Assembly: GCF_014695975.1 (NCBI RefSeq)
Contig: NZ_JACJPI010000081.1
Coordinates: forward strand, 186,001 to 250,000
Length of the DNA stretch: 64,000 nt
Reading direction: 5' to 3'
Source: Leptolyngbya sp. FACHB-321
Lineage (GTDB): Bacteria > Cyanobacteriota > Cyanobacteriia > Leptolyngbyales > Leptolyngbyaceae
This document shows positions 40,909-48,790 of this stretch, one piece after another; the stretch's first letter is position 1, and the number at the start of each line of letters is the position of its first letter. The notes under the pieces are model-generated. The model had not been told where the DNA came from, made no database searches, and saw nothing but the letters and a program-made list of their open reading frames with translations. The translations under genes were made by a program, and so were the position numbers.

Positions 40909-41610
40909 CTAAATCATCAATCGTTCTAGAGCATGCGGGTCGGGAATAGTGAGGGTATCGCGATCGCGCATGATCAGTCCCTTCTTCTCTAGCTTGCTCA
41001 ACACACGTGTCACTGTCTCCCGTGCTAGACCGCTGAGGCTACTCAACTCACGGTGGGGCAGATTGGGAATTTCAGTGCCAGTTGAAACCTTCTTGCCCTG
41101 TCCATCTGCCAGAAACAAAAGAATGTCTGCCACTCGTGAGGTGCTATCAGACTCACGTAACCGCAACCGACGATTGACCTGACGCAGGCGACGCGCCATG
41201 AGCTGTGCTAGCCGAATGCCAGATTGCGGCTCTGTATGCAGTAGGTTGACAAAATCTTGCGCAGGCATATTGCCAATAACAGTTTGTGCGAGGGTGATCA
41301 CATCGGTCGATCGTGGCACTTCGTCTAGGGGTGCCATTTCACCAAACAACTCGCCTTTGCCCAAGATATTAAGCGTGATTTCTTTGCCATCAAGGTTGTA
41401 AGTGCGAATCTTCACCCAGCCATTCAGGATGAAGTATACCGAGCTACCCCAGTCATTCTCCAGCAGAATGACCTGATTAGCTGGATGGCTCCGCATGACA
41501 ACGTGTGCAGTGGCTTTGTCAACGGCAGCTTCCGGTAGCCCTTCAAAAAAAGGAGCCGAACGAATCGATATATTGGCGTGCGTATCTCTAGGACTATACC
41601 GATCTTCCAT
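40909..41610 (-). CDS. Crp/Fnr family transcriptional regulator
   Basis: 233 residues. The cNMP-like beta-roll is residues 18-130 with GKGELFGEMAPLDEVPRSTD, a variant of the phosphate-binding cassette (RxA changed to RST), then a dimer helix and winged HTH LSSLSGLARETVTRVLSKLE. Without the full Arg-Ala set, cAMP binding is uncertain. Not NtcA. Upstream lies the long 41611-42518 region. Confidence 0.9.
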   Translation of the reverse strand: MEDRYSPRDTHANISIRSAPFFEGLPEAAVDKATAHVVMRSHPANQVILLENDWGSSVYFILNGWVKIRTYNLDGKEITLNILGKGELFGEMAPLDEVPRSTDVITLAQTVIGNMPAQDFVNLLHTEPQSGIRLAQLMARRLRQVNRRLRLRESDSTSRVADILLFLADGQGKKVSTGTEIPNLPHRELSSLSGLARETVTRVLSKLEKKGLIMRDRDTLTIPDPHALERLMI

Positions 41611-42518: not shown

Positions 42519-45500
42519 GTGACTTCTCAGAAGGATCAAATTCAAGCGCTGATTACCGATATTGACGGTGTCCTCCAAAAGACAACGCCTCGTCTTCCGT
42601 GGGTTGTCTCTGGAGAAATCACGCAACAGCGCCAGGTACTTGAGCGTGTGCGTAATTATCTTGTGGCGTTTCAGCGGCGACAGTTTGCGGGTGAAGGCTT
42701 TGGACAAGCAGAAGCCAGACCAGATTTGCTGGCGCATGACATTTACTATCAAGCGCCACCGTCCTATTCTCCGACAGAGTCTCAGCCGACGCAGCAGGCA
42801 TATGGGCAGAATGAAGCGAACGCCCAGCAGATGTTACAGGCGATCGTTCAGGAAATGGGTTCTTTGCGCTCTAACCTGATGCAGCCGCTCCAAGCAGATC
42901 TGGAGGTTTTGCGCCAGCAGCGAGAAGCGTTGACACAGGAAATCCGTCAGCTTGAAGCACAGCGTCAAGGCTATGCAGGGCAAATGCCTGGGCAGCAGCA
43001 GTTAATTGCAGAGTTTTTGCAGGCGTTGATGAGCCGGCTGCAAGAAACGTTGCCACAGCAGGTCGCGCAGACACTAGGTAGTAGTAACCAGCAGGCTTTG
43101 CCTTACGCCAATAATTTGGCTTTAGCAGGGGCAGCACCCTCGGTCATCTCCACTTCTGATGCGCCGTCGCAAGGATTGGGCAACATACAGGTGTCGCAAG
43201 CCTCATCCGATGAGCTGCTGATCCGACTCGACTCGACGTTGAGCATTGTGTTTGAATCGCTTCAGCGCAATGTGCAGGCATATCAGGAGTCGCTGTCTCA
43301 GGGGCTGGATAAAATGCACAGCATGGGGCAGCAGGGCGAGGTGATGTTTTCGGCGCTGATTAGTCACCTGGCGCAGCAGCTTGGACGTGAAACGTCGTCT
43401 TACTTACAGCCTGCGGCGGATCAGGCACTTGGACGATCGCCAAGCATCCCCTCATCAAAGCAGCAATCGCCTACGCCAGCAGTGAATCCGGCTCTGTTTG
43501 GTCAACCTGATGCTGATGCGGCATCGCAGCCCTTTGCGCTACCGTTCCCTGGTACAGAAATCTCTGATAGCTTTGGTGATGTCAGCACTGTCTCGTCTAC
43601 CAGTGTGTCCGTGCCATCGGTGGATTCGGCGATCGACTCTTGGCTGCGTTCTGCCAGCGGTGCTAGTGATCCGTCTGACGTTGCTTCAGACGTTGACGTG
43701 GAGCTTGCCGCCTTAAATCTGGAAGGCTTTGACCTTAGCCAGTTAGCGGCTCAGGATGTGAATGCTTTACTGGAGTTGGATGCAAATTTGCTCGGCACTA
43801 ACCTGCCACCCCAACCCCTTTTGTCACCAGTAGTGCCTGCCGCTCCAGAGACACTTTCTAGTAATGCGCCAACGGTGGAAGACACGGCTGATATTGATGC
43901 GGCGCTTAAACTGCTGGAGCAGCTAAGTTCTGAACTCCAAGAGCAGCCGTCCTCTGTTGCTGATGCCGATGCTCAGATCGATCGGATGCTAAATAGCCCA
44001 ACAGCTTCAGCGGAAGATGCCTCAACCGTCAGCATTCCTGATGATGCCAGGGATGAACTGGATGAATTCTACGAGAGTTTGTTTGGTACTAACGCGATCG
44101 CAGCATCAACGGAAGAGGCATCCGGCTCAGTTGCTTCCAGTGCCACTGAAGTTTCGTCTCCACGAACGGCTGAACCAGTTGCTGAATTTACCATCGAGCC
44201 GGAACCCGCGATCGCGCTGCCGGATACTCAGCCCTTTGATGCTCAGCCATCAGACGTTTCACCCATTTCTACACTTCCGGCTGAAGCCCAGGCTCCGGCT
44301 GACACTCTAGCTGAACCCACTGTCCCCTCTGTGCCATCTGCTTCTACGGCGTCTGATCCGACGTTAGGCTGGTTGCCAGTAGCACCTTTGGATACACCAG
44401 CAGCAGAGCCAGAGATTCCGGTAGCGTTGCTAGAAGACGAACTAGTGAACGGCTGGGATTTCGCTGATGCTGAGAGCGCTTTGTCTGAACCTGCGACCAC
44501 TCCCGTTACCGATAATCCACCCGCTACTGATGATCTACTGAGCGGCTGGGATCTTGTGGTAGACGATCGTGCCCCCTTCCAATCCGATGCGTCGCCGTCC
44601 CTTTCAACCGATACGTTGGCAGACTTTTTTGGCGAGAGTGAACCATTGGCAGCAGCGTCTAGCTCAGACGTTTTGTCTGAATCTACGACCGCTCCCGCTA
44701 CCGATAATTCGCTCGCTACTGATGATCTATTGAGTGGCTGGGATCTTACGGTAGACGATGCGGTAGATGCTCGCGCCCCCCTCCAATCTGATGCGCCATC
44801 GTCCCTTTCAACCGACGATACGTTGGCAGACTTCTTTGGTGAGAGCCAGCCAATGGCAGCAGAGGGTAGTGCAGACGTGTTATCTGAACCTGCGACGGCT
44901 CCTGCTACTGATGATGATCTATTAAGCGGCTGGGATCTTGCGGTAGACGATCGCGCCTCTCTCCAGTCCGATGCGCCGTCGTCCCTTTCAACCGATACAT
45001 TGGCAGACTTCTTTGGTGAAAGCCAGCCATTGGCAGCAGAGGTTAATCCAAATGTTGCTTCGCCGTTGGTTCTTACACCAGCTAATCAACAAGACAAGGT
45101 AAGCGAGGATATTACCAGGCTGGACGATGTGAGCGAGGACGAGATTAGCTCCCTTGATGATTTATTTGGGGAATCAGAGTTCGGCTCAGATATGCCTGCT
45201 GAAGGGCAGCCTCTGGAACCTACGATCGCCGCTGCTTCTACAGCTTCAGCGCCACCGCAGCCTCTGGTTACTCCGCCAGCTAGCTCTAGACGGTCTTCTG
45301 AGGGCAGTTCGACTCAGACTCCGCCTACTGATTTGGCAGAAGGCTACCTCTCTGACGATCGCTACACCCCTGCCTCGCCTGAGGAAGATTTACTGTCGCT
45401 TGCTGAACCGGTTGAAGCACTCGATTCAGAACTATGGCTTGATGAAAACACGCTGAGTCGTCTGAGCGAAGACCTTTTCAACTTAGAGGAGGTGATTAAT

Positions 45501-46904
45501 GAATCTTCACTGTCTTTCAGTAGTGATTCTGATGCCAACACCTCTTCGCTCTTTTCAGATGCGGTAGCGCCGTCTGAGCCAGCTCCACCCTCTACTGAAG
45601 CCACCAGCACTGTAAGCGAGTGGAGCGATGGTTTACTAGACGATTTTGCAGTTGATGAGTCGGCTTACAACGACGTTGTGCGGGACGATTTTGCTCTAGA
45701 TGAGTTTTCTGCTACACCGTCAGCTACGCCCCCAGCCACCTTCCCCCTTGAATCTGAGGCTCTCTCGATCGCTGCTGATCCACCCGGCACTTTCGTTTTA
45801 GAGGGCATGGATGATTTGTTCGCCAATACGCCTGTGGCACCGCCCGTTAGTCCAATTTCGCCTCCAGTGCCACCGATCGCGATGGAATCGCCAGCGTCTT
45901 TTACGTTGGAAGGGATGGACGACCTCTTTGGGGATGCTCCGACTGCCGATCAGCCCTTTACTACTGACTCGGCTTCAACAGCAGAGCCACCCTTCACCCT
46001 AGAAGCCTTTACGCTGGAGGGCGAGGAAGATTTGTTTGCTGATGCGCCTGGGGCTAGCACTGGCTCCTTGCCTATTGACTCGGCTTCAGCCGCAGAACCA
46101 GCTTTCACGTTGGAAGGTGTGGATGATTTGTTTGCCGATACGCCTGTGGTAGATACGCTCCCTGAGGCAGCTCAACCGTTACCCTTCACGCTAGAAGGCG
46201 TAGATGAACTGTTTGCTGATATGCCGCCAGTGCCTGCTAAATCACCAGCGCTTGATGTGCCGCCAGCCGTTTTAAGTGCTGGTAGTCTGCCAGTTCCGTC
46301 TGAAGCCACAACCGGAGCCCCGATCCAAGCTGACCCTGTTGCTGCTTTCACCTTCGAGCAAGTGGGTGATCTGTTTATAGAACTGCCAGAGACTGACGCA
46401 TCAACGGTCGCAGCTCCAAACGTTTTACCGACGGAAAGCCCTGCCTTAACTGATCCCTTTACTCTAGAGCAAATCGGTGATTTGTTTGTGGAAGTGCCGA
46501 CTGAAGAGCCCCTTCTTGATGGGCGATCGACCGAAACCCCAGCCGTTTCACCGGAGCCATCTGCTGCGCCCTTTACCCTGGAGCAAATGGGTGATTTGTT
46601 TGTGGAAACGCCTGCATCGCCAGAGCCAGCCCTGGAATCATCTGCTGCGCCCTTCACCCTAGAGCAAATGGGTGATTTGTTTGCTGAAACGCCGTCTGAA
46701 ACGTCTGAAGCTCAACCAGTTGCCGACCCGCCCGCTATACTGCAAACCTCGCAGCCAGCGGCAACGTCTGAGCCGTCGGCGCTGGAGCAGGCATTTGCTA
46801 GCCTGATGGGTTCGTTTGATGATCCGCAGGCACCCTTGCCACCGGCACCTGGCACAACAGAATCGACCACGGAGACTCCCGAAAAAAAAAAGGGGATGAG
46901 TTAG
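42519..46904 (+). CDS. Giant acidic repeat protein, N-terminal part of a probable frameshift product
   Basis: 1461 residues from GTG 42519 (AGGGG 7-8 nt upstream). The first ~260 residues are soluble with a coiled coil (QADLEVLRQQREALTQEIRQ and on). The rest is very acidic, Ser/Pro/Thr/Ala rich and disordered, with repeated short motifs: three ~65-residue units with LLSGWDL and ADFFGES (44523-45043), then nine units near FTLE(G/Q)-x-(D/G)DLFxxxP (45787-46692). No signal or membrane helix. It ends PEKKKGMS at an A-run; see the frameshift entry. Function unknown. The Hsp70-like gene follows in the -1 frame. Confidence 0.8.
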   Translation: MTSQKDQIQALITDIDGVLQKTTPRLPWVVSGEITQQRQVLERVRNYLVAFQRRQFAGEGFGQAEARPDLLAHDIYYQAPPSYSPTESQPTQQAYGQNEANAQQMLQAIVQEMGSLRSNLMQPLQADLEVLRQQREALTQEIRQLEAQRQGYAGQMPGQQQLIAEFLQALMSRLQETLPQQVAQTLGSSNQQALPYANNLALAGAAPSVISTSDAPSQGLGNIQVSQASSDELLIRLDSTLSIVFESLQRNVQAYQESLSQGLDKMHSMGQQGEVMFSALISHLAQQLGRETSSYLQPAADQALGRSPSIPSSKQQSPTPAVNPALFGQPDADAASQPFALPFPGTEISDSFGDVSTVSSTSVSVPSVDSAIDSWLRSASGASDPSDVASDVDVELAALNLEGFDLSQLAAQDVNALLELDANLLGTNLPPQPLLSPVVPAAPETLSSNAPTVEDTADIDAALKLLEQLSSELQEQPSSVADADAQIDRMLNSPTASAEDASTVSIPDDARDELDEFYESLFGTNAIAASTEEASGSVASSATEVSSPRTAEPVAEFTIEPEPAIALPDTQPFDAQPSDVSPISTLPAEAQAPADTLAEPTVPSVPSASTASDPTLGWLPVAPLDTPAAEPEIPVALLEDELVNGWDFADAESALSEPATTPVTDNPPATDDLLSGWDLVVDDRAPFQSDASPSLSTDTLADFFGESEPLAAASSSDVLSESTTAPATDNSLATDDLLSGWDLTVDDAVDARAPLQSDAPSSLSTDDTLADFFGESQPMAAEGSADVLSEPATAPATDDDLLSGWDLAVDDRASLQSDAPSSLSTDTLADFFGESQPLAAEVNPNVASPLVLTPANQQDKVSEDITRLDDVSEDEISSLDDLFGESEFGSDMPAEGQPLEPTIAAASTASAPPQPLVTPPASSRRSSEGSSTQTPPTDLAEGYLSDDRYTPASPEEDLLSLAEPVEALDSELWLDENTLSRLSEDLFNLEEVINESSLSFSSDSDANTSSLFSDAVAPSEPAPPSTEATSTVSEWSDGLLDDFAVDESAYNDVVRDDFALDEFSATPSATPPATFPLESEALSIAADPPGTFVLEGMDDLFANTPVAPPVSPISPPVPPIAMESPASFTLEGMDDLFGDAPTADQPFTTDSASTAEPPFTLEAFTLEGEEDLFADAPGASTGSLPIDSASAAEPAFTLEGVDDLFADTPVVDTLPEAAQPLPFTLEGVDELFADMPPVPAKSPALDVPPAVLSAGSLPVPSEATTGAPIQADPVAAFTFEQVGDLFIELPETDASTVAAPNVLPTESPALTDPFTLEQIGDLFVEVPTEEPLLDGRSTETPAVSPEPSAAPFTLEQMGDLFVETPASPEPALESSAAPFTLEQMGDLFAETPSETSEAQPVADPPAILQTSQPAATSEPSALEQAFASLMGSFDDPQAPLPPAPGTTESTTETPEKKKGMS
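44523..45043 (+). repeat. Three ~195-bp coding repeats (LLSGWDL ... ADFFGES)
   Basis: Units start near 44523, 44721 and 44911. Each has (A)TDDLLSGWDL, DD-R-AxxQSDAxxSLSTD, and LADFFGESxP. DNA similarity is high, so the copies are recent. Confidence 0.75.
45787..46692 (+). repeat. Nine coding repeats of the FTLE...DLF motif
   Basis: Copies read like FTLEGMDDLFGDAP, FTLEGVDDLFADTP and FTLEQMGDLFVETP, separated by Pro/Ser/Ala linkers of different length. The conserved core is acidic with LF, suggesting repeated binding peptides. Confidence 0.75.
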
Positions 46905-46922
46905 TTAATCTGCCCTGGCAGA
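46871..46922 (+). other. Candidate -1 frameshift (slippery) site
   Basis: Ten A (46882-46891) followed by GGGG. In the giant gene's frame the codons are GAA AAA AAA AAG, so A AAA AAG (46886-46892) is in register, identical to the E. coli dnaX slippery heptamer. GGAG at 46871-46874 is 11 nt upstream, near dnaX's spacing. TCTGC/GCAGA (46909-46922) forms a small downstream hairpin. The -1 frame has no stop from 46883 to 48790. Transcriptional slippage or an 11-A true run would give the same fusion. Confidence 0.6.
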
Positions 46923-46969: not shown

Positions 46970-48790
46970 GTGCCTGCCGATGAGTCTCCGATTGCTGCTG
47001 CTACCTTTGGACCAGATGCTCTGTGGTGTCTCGGTATTGATGTCGGAACGACTGCCCTCTCAGCAGTCTTGTTGCACTACCAGACAGGACAAACGTATCC
47101 TCTCGTTTGGCAAGAAACAGAAACCTCCGAGCAACCCCTAGCTAGCCTGCCTGCGATCGCCTATCTGTCTGCCTCACAATTGCAGCAGGCACCCGAAGCC
47201 CCTGACGCTTTGGGTTATCAGGCATTAGAGTTAGCACTCAGCACCCCAAGCCAAGCAGAAATGCCGTCTGGTCTGCTGTTAAGCAACATTAAACCCTACT
47301 TGAACGCTGCCACGCCTTACGTGAATGAGCCGACTCAGACCTGGGAGCCTGTACTTCAGTGGTCTGACCAACAAACACTGGCGCTGCGTTGGTATCACCA
47401 GGCGCTGGTAGCGCTGCTTGAAACTTTACAGGGCAAAACGGCGGGCTTAAGGGTTATCGCACCTACGTTGACAGTAGAAACGTTTCAAGCGGCACTCGCC
47501 AACCTGAGCAGTGTTGTTGTTGGTTGCCTAACCGGATGGTCAGATACTTACTGCTTCAATGTGCGAGAAGCGGTGCTGACAGCAGGGCTAGTCGAGCGCG
47601 CTGAACAAATTTATTTCATTGAAGATGCGATCGCTGCACTGCTTGCCACTCTGCCCCAGCCAATTACCCCAGAGCGCCAGTTCAATGACTTCCCGCTTTC
47701 TAACAAGGCAGAGGTATCGTTACAGGGTGGCACTCTGGTTGTAAGTGCAGGCGCAACTACTACTGAACTGCTGCTGGTTGATGTGCCTGCTGATGTCACC
47801 TTACTGAACCGTGAGGCGCTGTATTTACGCAGCCTTGCCTATGCCGGTGATGCGCTCGACCAGGATATCATCTGCCAAATCCTCTACCCCTCTGCTAGTC
47901 ATTGGGATGAGCTAGCGTTGCAAAGCCTGGATCTACCGCTTCCTGGAGAACCCGATCAAGAAGCCCGCGATCGCTTACAGCAGCGGCTCCGCAGCAGTGA
48001 ATTAGGAACTCATTTGCTGAATGCGGCTAGACAGCTCAAACTCGCTCTTCAGCAGCAAGACTCTGCCACTTTTACGCTTAACAACCAGCAGTGGACGGTG
48101 AGCCAGCAAGAGCTGCACAATCAGGTCGTCACACCGTATCTTCAGCAGTTGAACCGAGAGCTGAATGTATTGCTGAATCAAAGCGGTATTGTAGTACAGG
48201 CAGTGCGGCAGGTTATTTGCACAGGAGGTACGACAGCGCTCCCCGCGATCACCCACTGGCTGAAGCAAAAGCTCCCCAACACGCGCCTCATTCAAGCTCT
48301 AGAGCCAGACGGTAGGGATGGTCATCTCATTGCCCGTGGTTTGGCAACCTTACCGCATTACCCACAGGTGTTAGATGACGTGCGCCATCAGTACAGTGAT
48401 TACTTTCTGCTGCATGAGTTGATGCGGATCTTGCCCGATGAACCACTCTTTGTGGGACGCATTCTGCAACTGCTAGAAAACCAAGGTATTAATACCTCTT
48501 TTTGCCAGCGCCCAATCCTTAGTTTGTTAGAAGGACAACTGCCAATCGGTCTGGTGCCGTCGAATGATAACTCAAGCCTGCTTACAGCGTCGTCTCGACA
48601 GAATCCTGATTATCAGTTTCTCCTTTCAACACCACTTTTTCTCAGGGGAGGGAATCAGCTTTACGGGTTCAATCCAGAAGGACGCGATCGCCTTCAGCGC
48701 TATCTGGCAGCACTCCTGACAGACACACACCAAAAACTGACAGAACCATTGCCGATCGAGTTCGGTGCTGCTGTAAGGGCGGGAGGCTAA
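46970..48790 (+). CDS. Hsp70-like ATPase, probably made as a -1 frameshift fusion
   Basis: 606 residues from GTG 46970, which has no visible ribosome site; the frame is open back to the A-run at 46883 and reads KKKGDELVNLPWQTVDRAAS before it. Actin-fold motifs: phosphate 1 GIDVGTTALSAVLL, connect 1 IEDAIAALLATL, phosphate 2 in a weakened form VVSAGATTTELLLVDV, and adenosine VICTGGTTALPAI. The substrate-binding beta domain of DnaK is not visible; the C-terminal part (residues about 470-606) is a different, unknown region. It may act with the giant repeat part as one 2090-residue protein. Confidence 0.8.
   Translation: MPADESPIAAATFGPDALWCLGIDVGTTALSAVLLHYQTGQTYPLVWQETETSEQPLASLPAIAYLSASQLQQAPEAPDALGYQALELALSTPSQAEMPSGLLLSNIKPYLNAATPYVNEPTQTWEPVLQWSDQQTLALRWYHQALVALLETLQGKTAGLRVIAPTLTVETFQAALANLSSVVVGCLTGWSDTYCFNVREAVLTAGLVERAEQIYFIEDAIAALLATLPQPITPERQFNDFPLSNKAEVSLQGGTLVVSAGATTTELLLVDVPADVTLLNREALYLRSLAYAGDALDQDIICQILYPSASHWDELALQSLDLPLPGEPDQEARDRLQQRLRSSELGTHLLNAARQLKLALQQQDSATFTLNNQQWTVSQQELHNQVVTPYLQQLNRELNVLLNQSGIVVQAVRQVICTGGTTALPAITHWLKQKLPNTRLIQALEPDGRDGHLIARGLATLPHYPQVLDDVRHQYSDYFLLHELMRILPDEPLFVGRILQLLENQGINTSFCQRPILSLLEGQLPIGLVPSNDNSSLLTASSRQNPDYQFLLSTPLFLRGGNQLYGFNPEGRDRLQRYLAALLTDTHQKLTEPLPIEFGAAVRAGG

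Follow-up and report, generated by a model that had tools for sequence, protein, structure and literature searches.

To our knowledge, few bacterial genes outside mobile elements are known to use programmed transcriptional slippage. The described cases include Thermus dnaX, as well as cases from Shigella and from IS elements (PMC5009743, PMC1088944). In Thermus thermophilus dnaX, transcriptional slippage takes place at nine A (PMC1088944, PMC5009743), and the cyanobacterial locus considered here resembles it in that a poly-A tract within a cellular gene would give rise to a long and a truncated product, a design which matches that of the fused relatives of the locus. However, in Thermus dnaX the reading frame is continuous in the DNA, and slippage shortens the product, whereas in the window, i.e., the whole stretch of 64,000 nucleotides that was analysed, the two frames do not match in the DNA and slippage would lengthen the product. 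Moreover, the protein is a different one, and each of the three frame states is represented among its cyanobacterial orthologues. The two-ORF dnaX genes with 7-10 A, of which twelve have been described, the three species named being Chlorobi (PMC3711429), are likewise similar in that an out-of-frame poly-A tract joins two ORFs whose relatives are single ORFs, although the gene differs.

Poly-A slippage has also been described for transposases of IS elements, those of the IS630 type slipping in both directions (PMC3711429), and the IS elements of Nostoc PCC 7120 carry runs of 8-10 A, which suggests that runs of this length are prone to slippage in a cyanobacterium (PMC1088944). These transposases, too, have a poly-A tract with +1 and -1 orthologues, a cyanobacterium included. 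However, IS elements are mobile, whereas the gene described here is chromosomal and has a Crp-type gene as its conserved neighbour. In turn, dnaX of Escherichia coli uses -1 ribosomal frameshifting (PMC3711429) and has the heptamer A AAA AAG in common with the cyanobacterial locus, but the cyanobacterial set has neither a Shine-Dalgarno (SD) word nor a hairpin in common and does not conserve the direction of the shift. A non-conserved direction is considered to be a mark of transcriptional realignment as opposed to ribosomal frameshifting (PMC3711429). Among the papers listed on slippage or realignment in cyanobacteria and on Hsp70-like giant proteins, no title or opening of an abstract was found to report the gene, which might be an unnamed entry in the supplementary tables of PMC3711429 or PMC1088944; a giant protein combining coiled-coil and acidic regions with an Hsp70-like ATPase is apparently undescribed.

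Reading frames at the A run

The giant 0-frame ORF reads GAA AAA AAA AAG GGG ATG AGT TAG across the run (Table 1). A reading made from the letters of the window, hereafter the sequence-only reading, had noted an A run containing A AAA AAG in the 0-frame, a stop four codons further on and a -1 frame remaining open up to the end of the ATPase ORF. All of this is confirmed, and the -1 frame is in addition free of stops upstream to about position 46823. A shift by one base at the run would yield a protein of, by computation, 1455 + 635 = 2090 residues, and the proposal that such a fusion exists beside a truncated form of 1461 residues is supported, the two frames being most likely joined through a programmed event at the A run. 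No other A10 is found on either strand of the window, where shuffled sequences contain a mean of 0.35, and there are four exact A10 runs in the entire 6.7-Mb genome.

Table 1. Features at and around the candidate slip site, numbered from the first letter of the window
Feature	Position	Strand	Remarks
Divergent upstream gene for a Crp-family regulator	40909..41610	-	Pfam cNMP_binding + HTH_Crp_2
0-frame ORF, 1461 aa, GTG start	42519..46904	+	ORF list; putative short product ending EKKKGMS-stop
GGAG	46871-46874	+	5' of run; window sequence
A10, candidate slip site	46882..46891	+	ten A in window sequence; A9-A11 in 79/161 distinct loci
-1 frame ORF, 635 aa	46883..48790	+	stop-free; linker, Hsp70 NBD fold, helical C-terminal extension; putatively in long product only
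0-frame stop TAG	46902..46904	+	four codons past run; frame H+1 relative to ATPase
Hairpin arms TCTGC / GCAGA, 5 bp	46909-46913 / 46918-46922	+	3' of run; window sequence
GTG	46970..46972	+	first start codon of ATPase frame in ORF list; judged not the normal start

Taken together with the comparisons below, the A10 run is probably (with a probability of roughly three in four) a programmed slip site at which slippage of RNA polymerase would allow for two proteins to be made from one gene. The polymerase would slip on the rA:dT run and thereby generate transcripts of mixed run length. In the window, the unslipped mRNA would be translated into the coiled-coil/acidic protein ending in KKKGMS, and an mRNA with one extra A or with two fewer into the fusion with the Hsp70-like ATPase, while relatives having the run in frame would need no slippage for the fusion and would owe the short form to it. 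We thus infer the same two products, N-only and N-Hsp70, whatever the frame of the DNA.

Conservation of the run and changes of frame among relatives

Matches to the ATPase part were found in 37 of 58 related genomes with the window protein as query, and an alignment-based search of the class gave them in 315 of 388 genomes, both counts including weak matches which might be ordinary Hsp70s. In total, 189 loci were fetched and, after removal of 28 duplicates, 161 distinct loci analysed. Two sets, one of 30 loci and one of 80 (the best 80 of 282 found), were top matches to the window protein or to the alignment, and 79 further loci were chosen by hand among the matches listed, comprising most of the short open frames not already taken and a spread of long ones. 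Because the sample is therefore enriched for short frames, the ratio of split to fused loci is biased and does not reflect a natural frequency. Loci were classified according to the offset of the upstream reading frame from that of the ATPase, termed H, where split+1 loci require a -1 shift or one added A and split+2 loci the opposite shift. The classes comprise 103 fused, 37 split+1 and 9 split+2 loci, one separate pair, three doubtful splits, and eight loci left without a class owing to contig ends or damage (L007, L011, L014 and five loci without a run). The script alone gave 46 split loci, 43 of them with a run of at least nine A; by hand, the run-bearing loci L013, L121 and L130 were set to split+1, the run-less L045, L063 and L135 were set apart as doubtful and L124 as separate. 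As these decisions favour the run count, the proportion of split loci bearing a run is given here as 46 of 49, with the doubtful ones counted.

A run of A9-A11 precedes the ATPase in 79 loci (63 with A10, 9 with A9 and 7 with A11), namely in all split+1 and all split+2 loci, in three of the eight unassigned loci, in none of the three doubtful splits and not in the separate pair, as well as in 30 of the 103 fused loci, for which the longest A run within 1200 nt before the ATPase motif was counted (offsets -890 to -77), so that a few of these runs may not represent the same site. Of 65 A10 runs on both strands of the 1.75 Mb of sequence from these loci, 63 are counted junction runs, and in all 46 assigned split loci the run lies inside the overlap of the two ORFs, which spans 13-221 nt. 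Among the members of the genus searched, A10 is found at the junction in seven of seven genomes, and all six with a readable upstream side are split+1 with the ATPase in -1. Of the 19 coded families that were tabulated, 14 include at least one run-bearing locus. Conservation across genera of a homopolymer (8 or more A/T) at the junction, as looked for in genes with programmed transcriptional realignment (PTR), is thus observed.

It is disfavoured that the run owes its presence solely to conservation of an E-K-K-K peptide. Only 37 of 76 runs read GAA AAA AAA AAG, the other 39 reading otherwise, and run starts are seen in all three codon phases, so that more than a peptide appears to be conserved; since 62 of the 76 share one phase, some preference for the peptide is possible. 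In fused loci without a run (n = 73), KKK occurs in the linker of one, L185, encoded as AAG-AAA-AAA, and KK encoded as AAA-AAA within A8 runs in five. In these 73 of the 103 fused loci, the 1200 nt that precede the ATPase motif contain no run of nine or more A, so that the short form either is lacking from some relatives or arises by another route. Furthermore, L124 has clearly separate genes with a gap and no run, its ATPase beginning MSNDWYLGID at an ATG, and L045 may be similar, with separate genes and an own ATG; therefore a covalent fusion is not always needed.

Of the 76 run-bearing loci with an assigned state, 37 need a shift by -1, nine need the opposite shift and 30 are fused, i.e., the direction of the shift is not conserved among orthologues, as is found for PTR genes. 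On a FastTree phylogeny of the ATPase part, which has long branches and on which counts of changes are minima, the frame state has changed 18 times or more in the whole set and 15 times or more among run-bearing loci, and the run has been gained or lost 15 times or more. Split states arise repeatedly in different families. In the Nostocales clade, the 18 loci with a run are all in frame. Between near relatives, the site differs chiefly in the run or in one flanking base: L071 (A10, fused) and L092 (A9, split+1) share 92.7% of residues, and among L081 (A10, fused), L131 (A10 minus one flanking base, split+1) and L133 (A11, split+2) 81-90% of residues are shared. The candidate slip-site gene is therefore, being widespread in cyanobacteria, present in all three frame states and variable by single bases of the run between close relatives, a natural experiment on how slippage may relax the keeping of the frame. 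Ordinary gene calling would annotate its split copies as two genes and omit the short form of the fused ones.

Stops and substitution rates were compared as well. The first stop in frame H+1 lies at codon index 4 or lower after the run in 34 of 37 split+1 loci, where it is partly built into the definition of the class, and in 9 of 9 split+2 and 15 of 30 fused loci, where it is not; the corresponding figures for frame H+2 are 13/37, 1/9 and 5/30, and plain codon counting gives an expected share of about one in five as an estimate. The other 15 of the 30 fused run-bearing loci, all from the Nostocales clade, have their H+1 stop 11-33 codons on. For the ATPase part, dN/dS was 0.06-0.21 in the eight split+1 pairs tried (0.13 or lower in six), 0.19 in one split+2 pair, 0.08 in one split+1/split+2 pair and 0.09-0.18 in three fused pairs, compared with 0.25 for L071/L092 and 0.32-0.38 in the group of L081, L131 and L133; in three pairs dS exceeds 1.6 and is near saturation. 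These low values indicate that the out-of-frame ATPase part is under purifying selection, which is weaker in the Microcoleus-type group.

Proposed polymerase slippage and alternative explanations

Orthologues that need a -1 shift, the opposite shift or none at all and nonetheless all have a run fit transcriptional slippage. The sequence-only reading had instead put forward a dnaX-type -1 ribosomal frameshift with stimulators, mentioning transcriptional slippage as an alternative; it is this alternative that turns out to be the better reading. A change of frame on the ribosome, either by -1 frameshifting at A AAA AAG or by sliding on the run, which might likewise yield more than one frame, has in its favour that A10 contains slippery heptamers in every phase, that 37 of the 46 assigned split loci require exactly -1, that sliding of ribosomes on A runs has been described (PMC4363877) and that magnesium chelatase cassettes with 7, 9 and 11 A shift by 10, 40 and 63%, respectively, in E. 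coli (PMC3711429). In three-lysine reporters, however, A9 and A10 yielded little product and A11 a robust amount (PMC4363877), and dnaX-type programmed ribosomal frameshifting (PRF) would predict a conserved -1 direction, whereas the shift required is the opposite one in nine of the 46 assigned split loci, and the 30 in-frame loci keep the run. Nor does the set display the SD word 5' of the run combined with a stem-loop 3' of it that characterises dnaX-type PRF. SD-like words 5' of the run occur in 6 of 37 split+1, 3 of 9 split+2 and 3 of 30 fused loci, near the expected 4.0, 1.0 and 3.4, and the mean z of the 3' fold is close to that of shuffled sequences (-0.54, -0.05 and -0.14, respectively). 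The GGAG and the hairpin that had been proposed as stimulators are indeed present in the window but are not supported as stimulators, neither being conserved: both are absent from the equivalent place in the five other genus members compared, and the 70 nt 3' of the run in the window fold no better than shuffles (z = +0.87). At the place of GGAG, the genus member L034 has AGGA. A 3' fold with z < -2 is found in 5 of 37 split+1 loci (one of them L032 from the genus, with z = -2.8), 0 of 9 split+2 and 2 of 30 fused loci, and a ribosomal part is therefore possible in some lineages; as the general explanation, recoding on the ribosome is improbable. A 5' hairpin that might stimulate slippage of the polymerase was not seen either (mean z of 0.12, 0.24 and -0.39), and no hairpin common to the set of loci was found on either side of the run.

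The differences in run length (A9, A10 or A11) and in frame between near relatives would also be in line with a phase-variation switch, in which replication slippage turns the ATPase on and off between cells or lineages. However, the genus members searched have the same out-of-frame A10 despite an identity of their ATPase to that of the window of 64-71%, and the phase is constant across the readable members (with one genome per species). Switch-like rates would be expected to mix the phases, both here and in the Nostocales clade, where all run-bearing loci are in frame, and the purifying selection on the out-of-frame ATPase also argues against a switch, which is accordingly given little credence. 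Even less probable are two ordinary overlapping or coupled genes with the ATPase translated from its own GTG. That codon exists, 37 of the 46 split loci have some ATG, GTG or TTG in the linker, four of these with a 4-nt SD core, and L124, possibly together with L045, shows that separate genes do occur. Yet nine of the 46 have no such codon between the run and the ATPase motif, 42 lack a linker start carrying a 4-nt SD core and 30 lack one with even a 3-nt core, so that an internal start at the GTG is disfavoured; two genes would, moreover, leave the A run unexplained, and 103 of the 161 loci are fused. As to a homopolymer error concealing a true A11 and thus one plain gene, homopolymers are error-prone and L011, L013 and L135 look damaged, but A10 is found in all seven genus genomes searched and, together with split frames, in G030, G058, G019 and G285, which are listed as one-contig assemblies, and split states are seen in one family after another. 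The junction is therefore unlikely to be a sequencing artefact, and a plain gene with eleven A can for practical purposes be discounted. Of the observations that the sequence-only reading had named as speaking against it, eleven A instead of ten was thus not borne out, whereas relatives with separate genes do exist, in the form of the more distant L124.

Domains, neighbouring gene and a second linker family

The 0-frame protein consists of an N-terminal helical or coiled-coil region followed by a long acidic low-complexity stretch, with 18.9% D+E, 1.9% K+R and nine DLF-type repeats in residues 301-1461. A structure model of the N-terminus contains helices only (pLDDT 65.7, pTM 0.26), which are therefore predicted with moderate confidence. 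Of 71 relatives examined, 63 matched a start pattern whose first residue is V or M, and in 62 of these 63 the start codon of the giant ORF is GTG. Neither Pfam nor NCBIfam gave a match above cut-off for the 0-frame part, and no Pfam family was found at E 0.001 for two complete fused relatives. The divergent Crp-family gene is conserved in 27 of the 32 loci compared, the window being counted among them. The search of neighbouring genes for a functional clue yielded this gene but did not reveal a function; as a conserved neighbour it is a first lead on the giant ATPase.

The model of the ATPase part (606 aa from the GTG; pLDDT 89.1, pTM 0.91) has the fold of an Hsp70 nucleotide-binding domain, as found in the Hsp70/actin-like ATPase superfamily, plus a further helical part. 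Its best structural match is DnaK (Z 23.4; Foldseek E 3.3e-16), the top 11 rows all being DnaK chains with Z 22.4-23.4 over 333-374 residues. Nevertheless, identity to the Hsp70/DnaK domain amounts to 13-20% in the structural alignments listed, and unlike Hsp70/DnaK the ATPase part sits behind a giant acidic coiled-coil part. It is not a canonical DnaK/Hsp70 chaperone by the curated models, reaching neither the Pfam HSP70 cut-off (19.3 vs 20.6 bits) nor that of TIGR02350 for DnaK (14 vs 822.55). D24 and G26, which we take to belong to the first phosphate loop, are invariant among 32 aligned sequences. The Hsp70-like part is a putative ATPase. Since both products would share the N-terminal coiled-coil part, the number of subunits bearing an ATPase head within an assembly might depend on the slip ratio, in analogy to the two dnaX products in Thermus, a weaker suggestion that is somewhat less likely than not.

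It is quite possible, if short of probable, that phase-neutral slip sites of this kind are located at the linkers of several giant multidomain proteins of cyanobacteria, where the frame of the DNA could wander among the fused, +1 and -1 states without loss of either product, because slippage of RNA polymerase would always supply both frames. A second of the four A10 runs in the genome is found in a synthase (Pfam PP-binding and KR), where it forms an in-frame part of the linker joining four carrier-protein domains to a ketoreductase. Among the relatives compared, L221 matched the carrier part only, the linker of L198 is open without a run, and L199 changes frame near the equivalent place, likewise without a run. 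L195 has A10 in frame in the homologous linker, and L196 (A9), L197 (A8) and L216 (A10), three split loci from two relatives, are split there.

Loci with a separate ATPase gene or a broken frame

The Hsp70-like ATPase has an ATG of its own at the relative locus L124, and perhaps also at L045, with no run of nine A remaining at either; L052, which falls in one group with them in the tree, carries a run of eleven A and has the giant part and the ATPase fused in one frame. The frame is broken without an A run at L063 and L135, while at L011 and L013 one gene is broken several times, and these breaks at all four loci may be due to assembly errors or decay.

Start codon, repeats and upstream neighbours of the giant gene

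The giant gene begins with GTG in 62 of the 63 relatives with a recognised start, a constancy which is unusual given that this is a weaker type of start. The encoded protein has nine acidic DLF-type repeats (e.g., FTLEGMDDLF), which are possible docking motifs. Upstream, a divergent gene for a Crp-family regulator was found in the window as well as at 26 other loci (32 compared), and near it lie relatives of the DUF2232 membrane protein and of the CobT-type phosphoribosyltransferase of L053, each at 21 of 32 loci.

Coordinates of the features
Feature	Position	Position in genome
Crp-family regulator gene	window 40909-41610	
Giant-gene start codon (GTG)	window 42519-42521	
DLF-type repeats	window 45140-46700	
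Synthase linker A run, window genome	L190:1502-1511	G000 C2:42565-42574

A runs elsewhere in the genome

Runs of eight to ten A also occur in the linker of a second gene, coding for a tandem carrier-protein/ketoreductase synthase; the frame continues across the run in the window genome and at L195, and is split there at L196 (L196/L220), L197 and L216. Across the whole 6.7 Mb window genome, exact runs of ten A number four, about ten times below the expectation roughly extrapolated from shuffles of the window scaled to the genome, a scarcity compatible with their being selected against.
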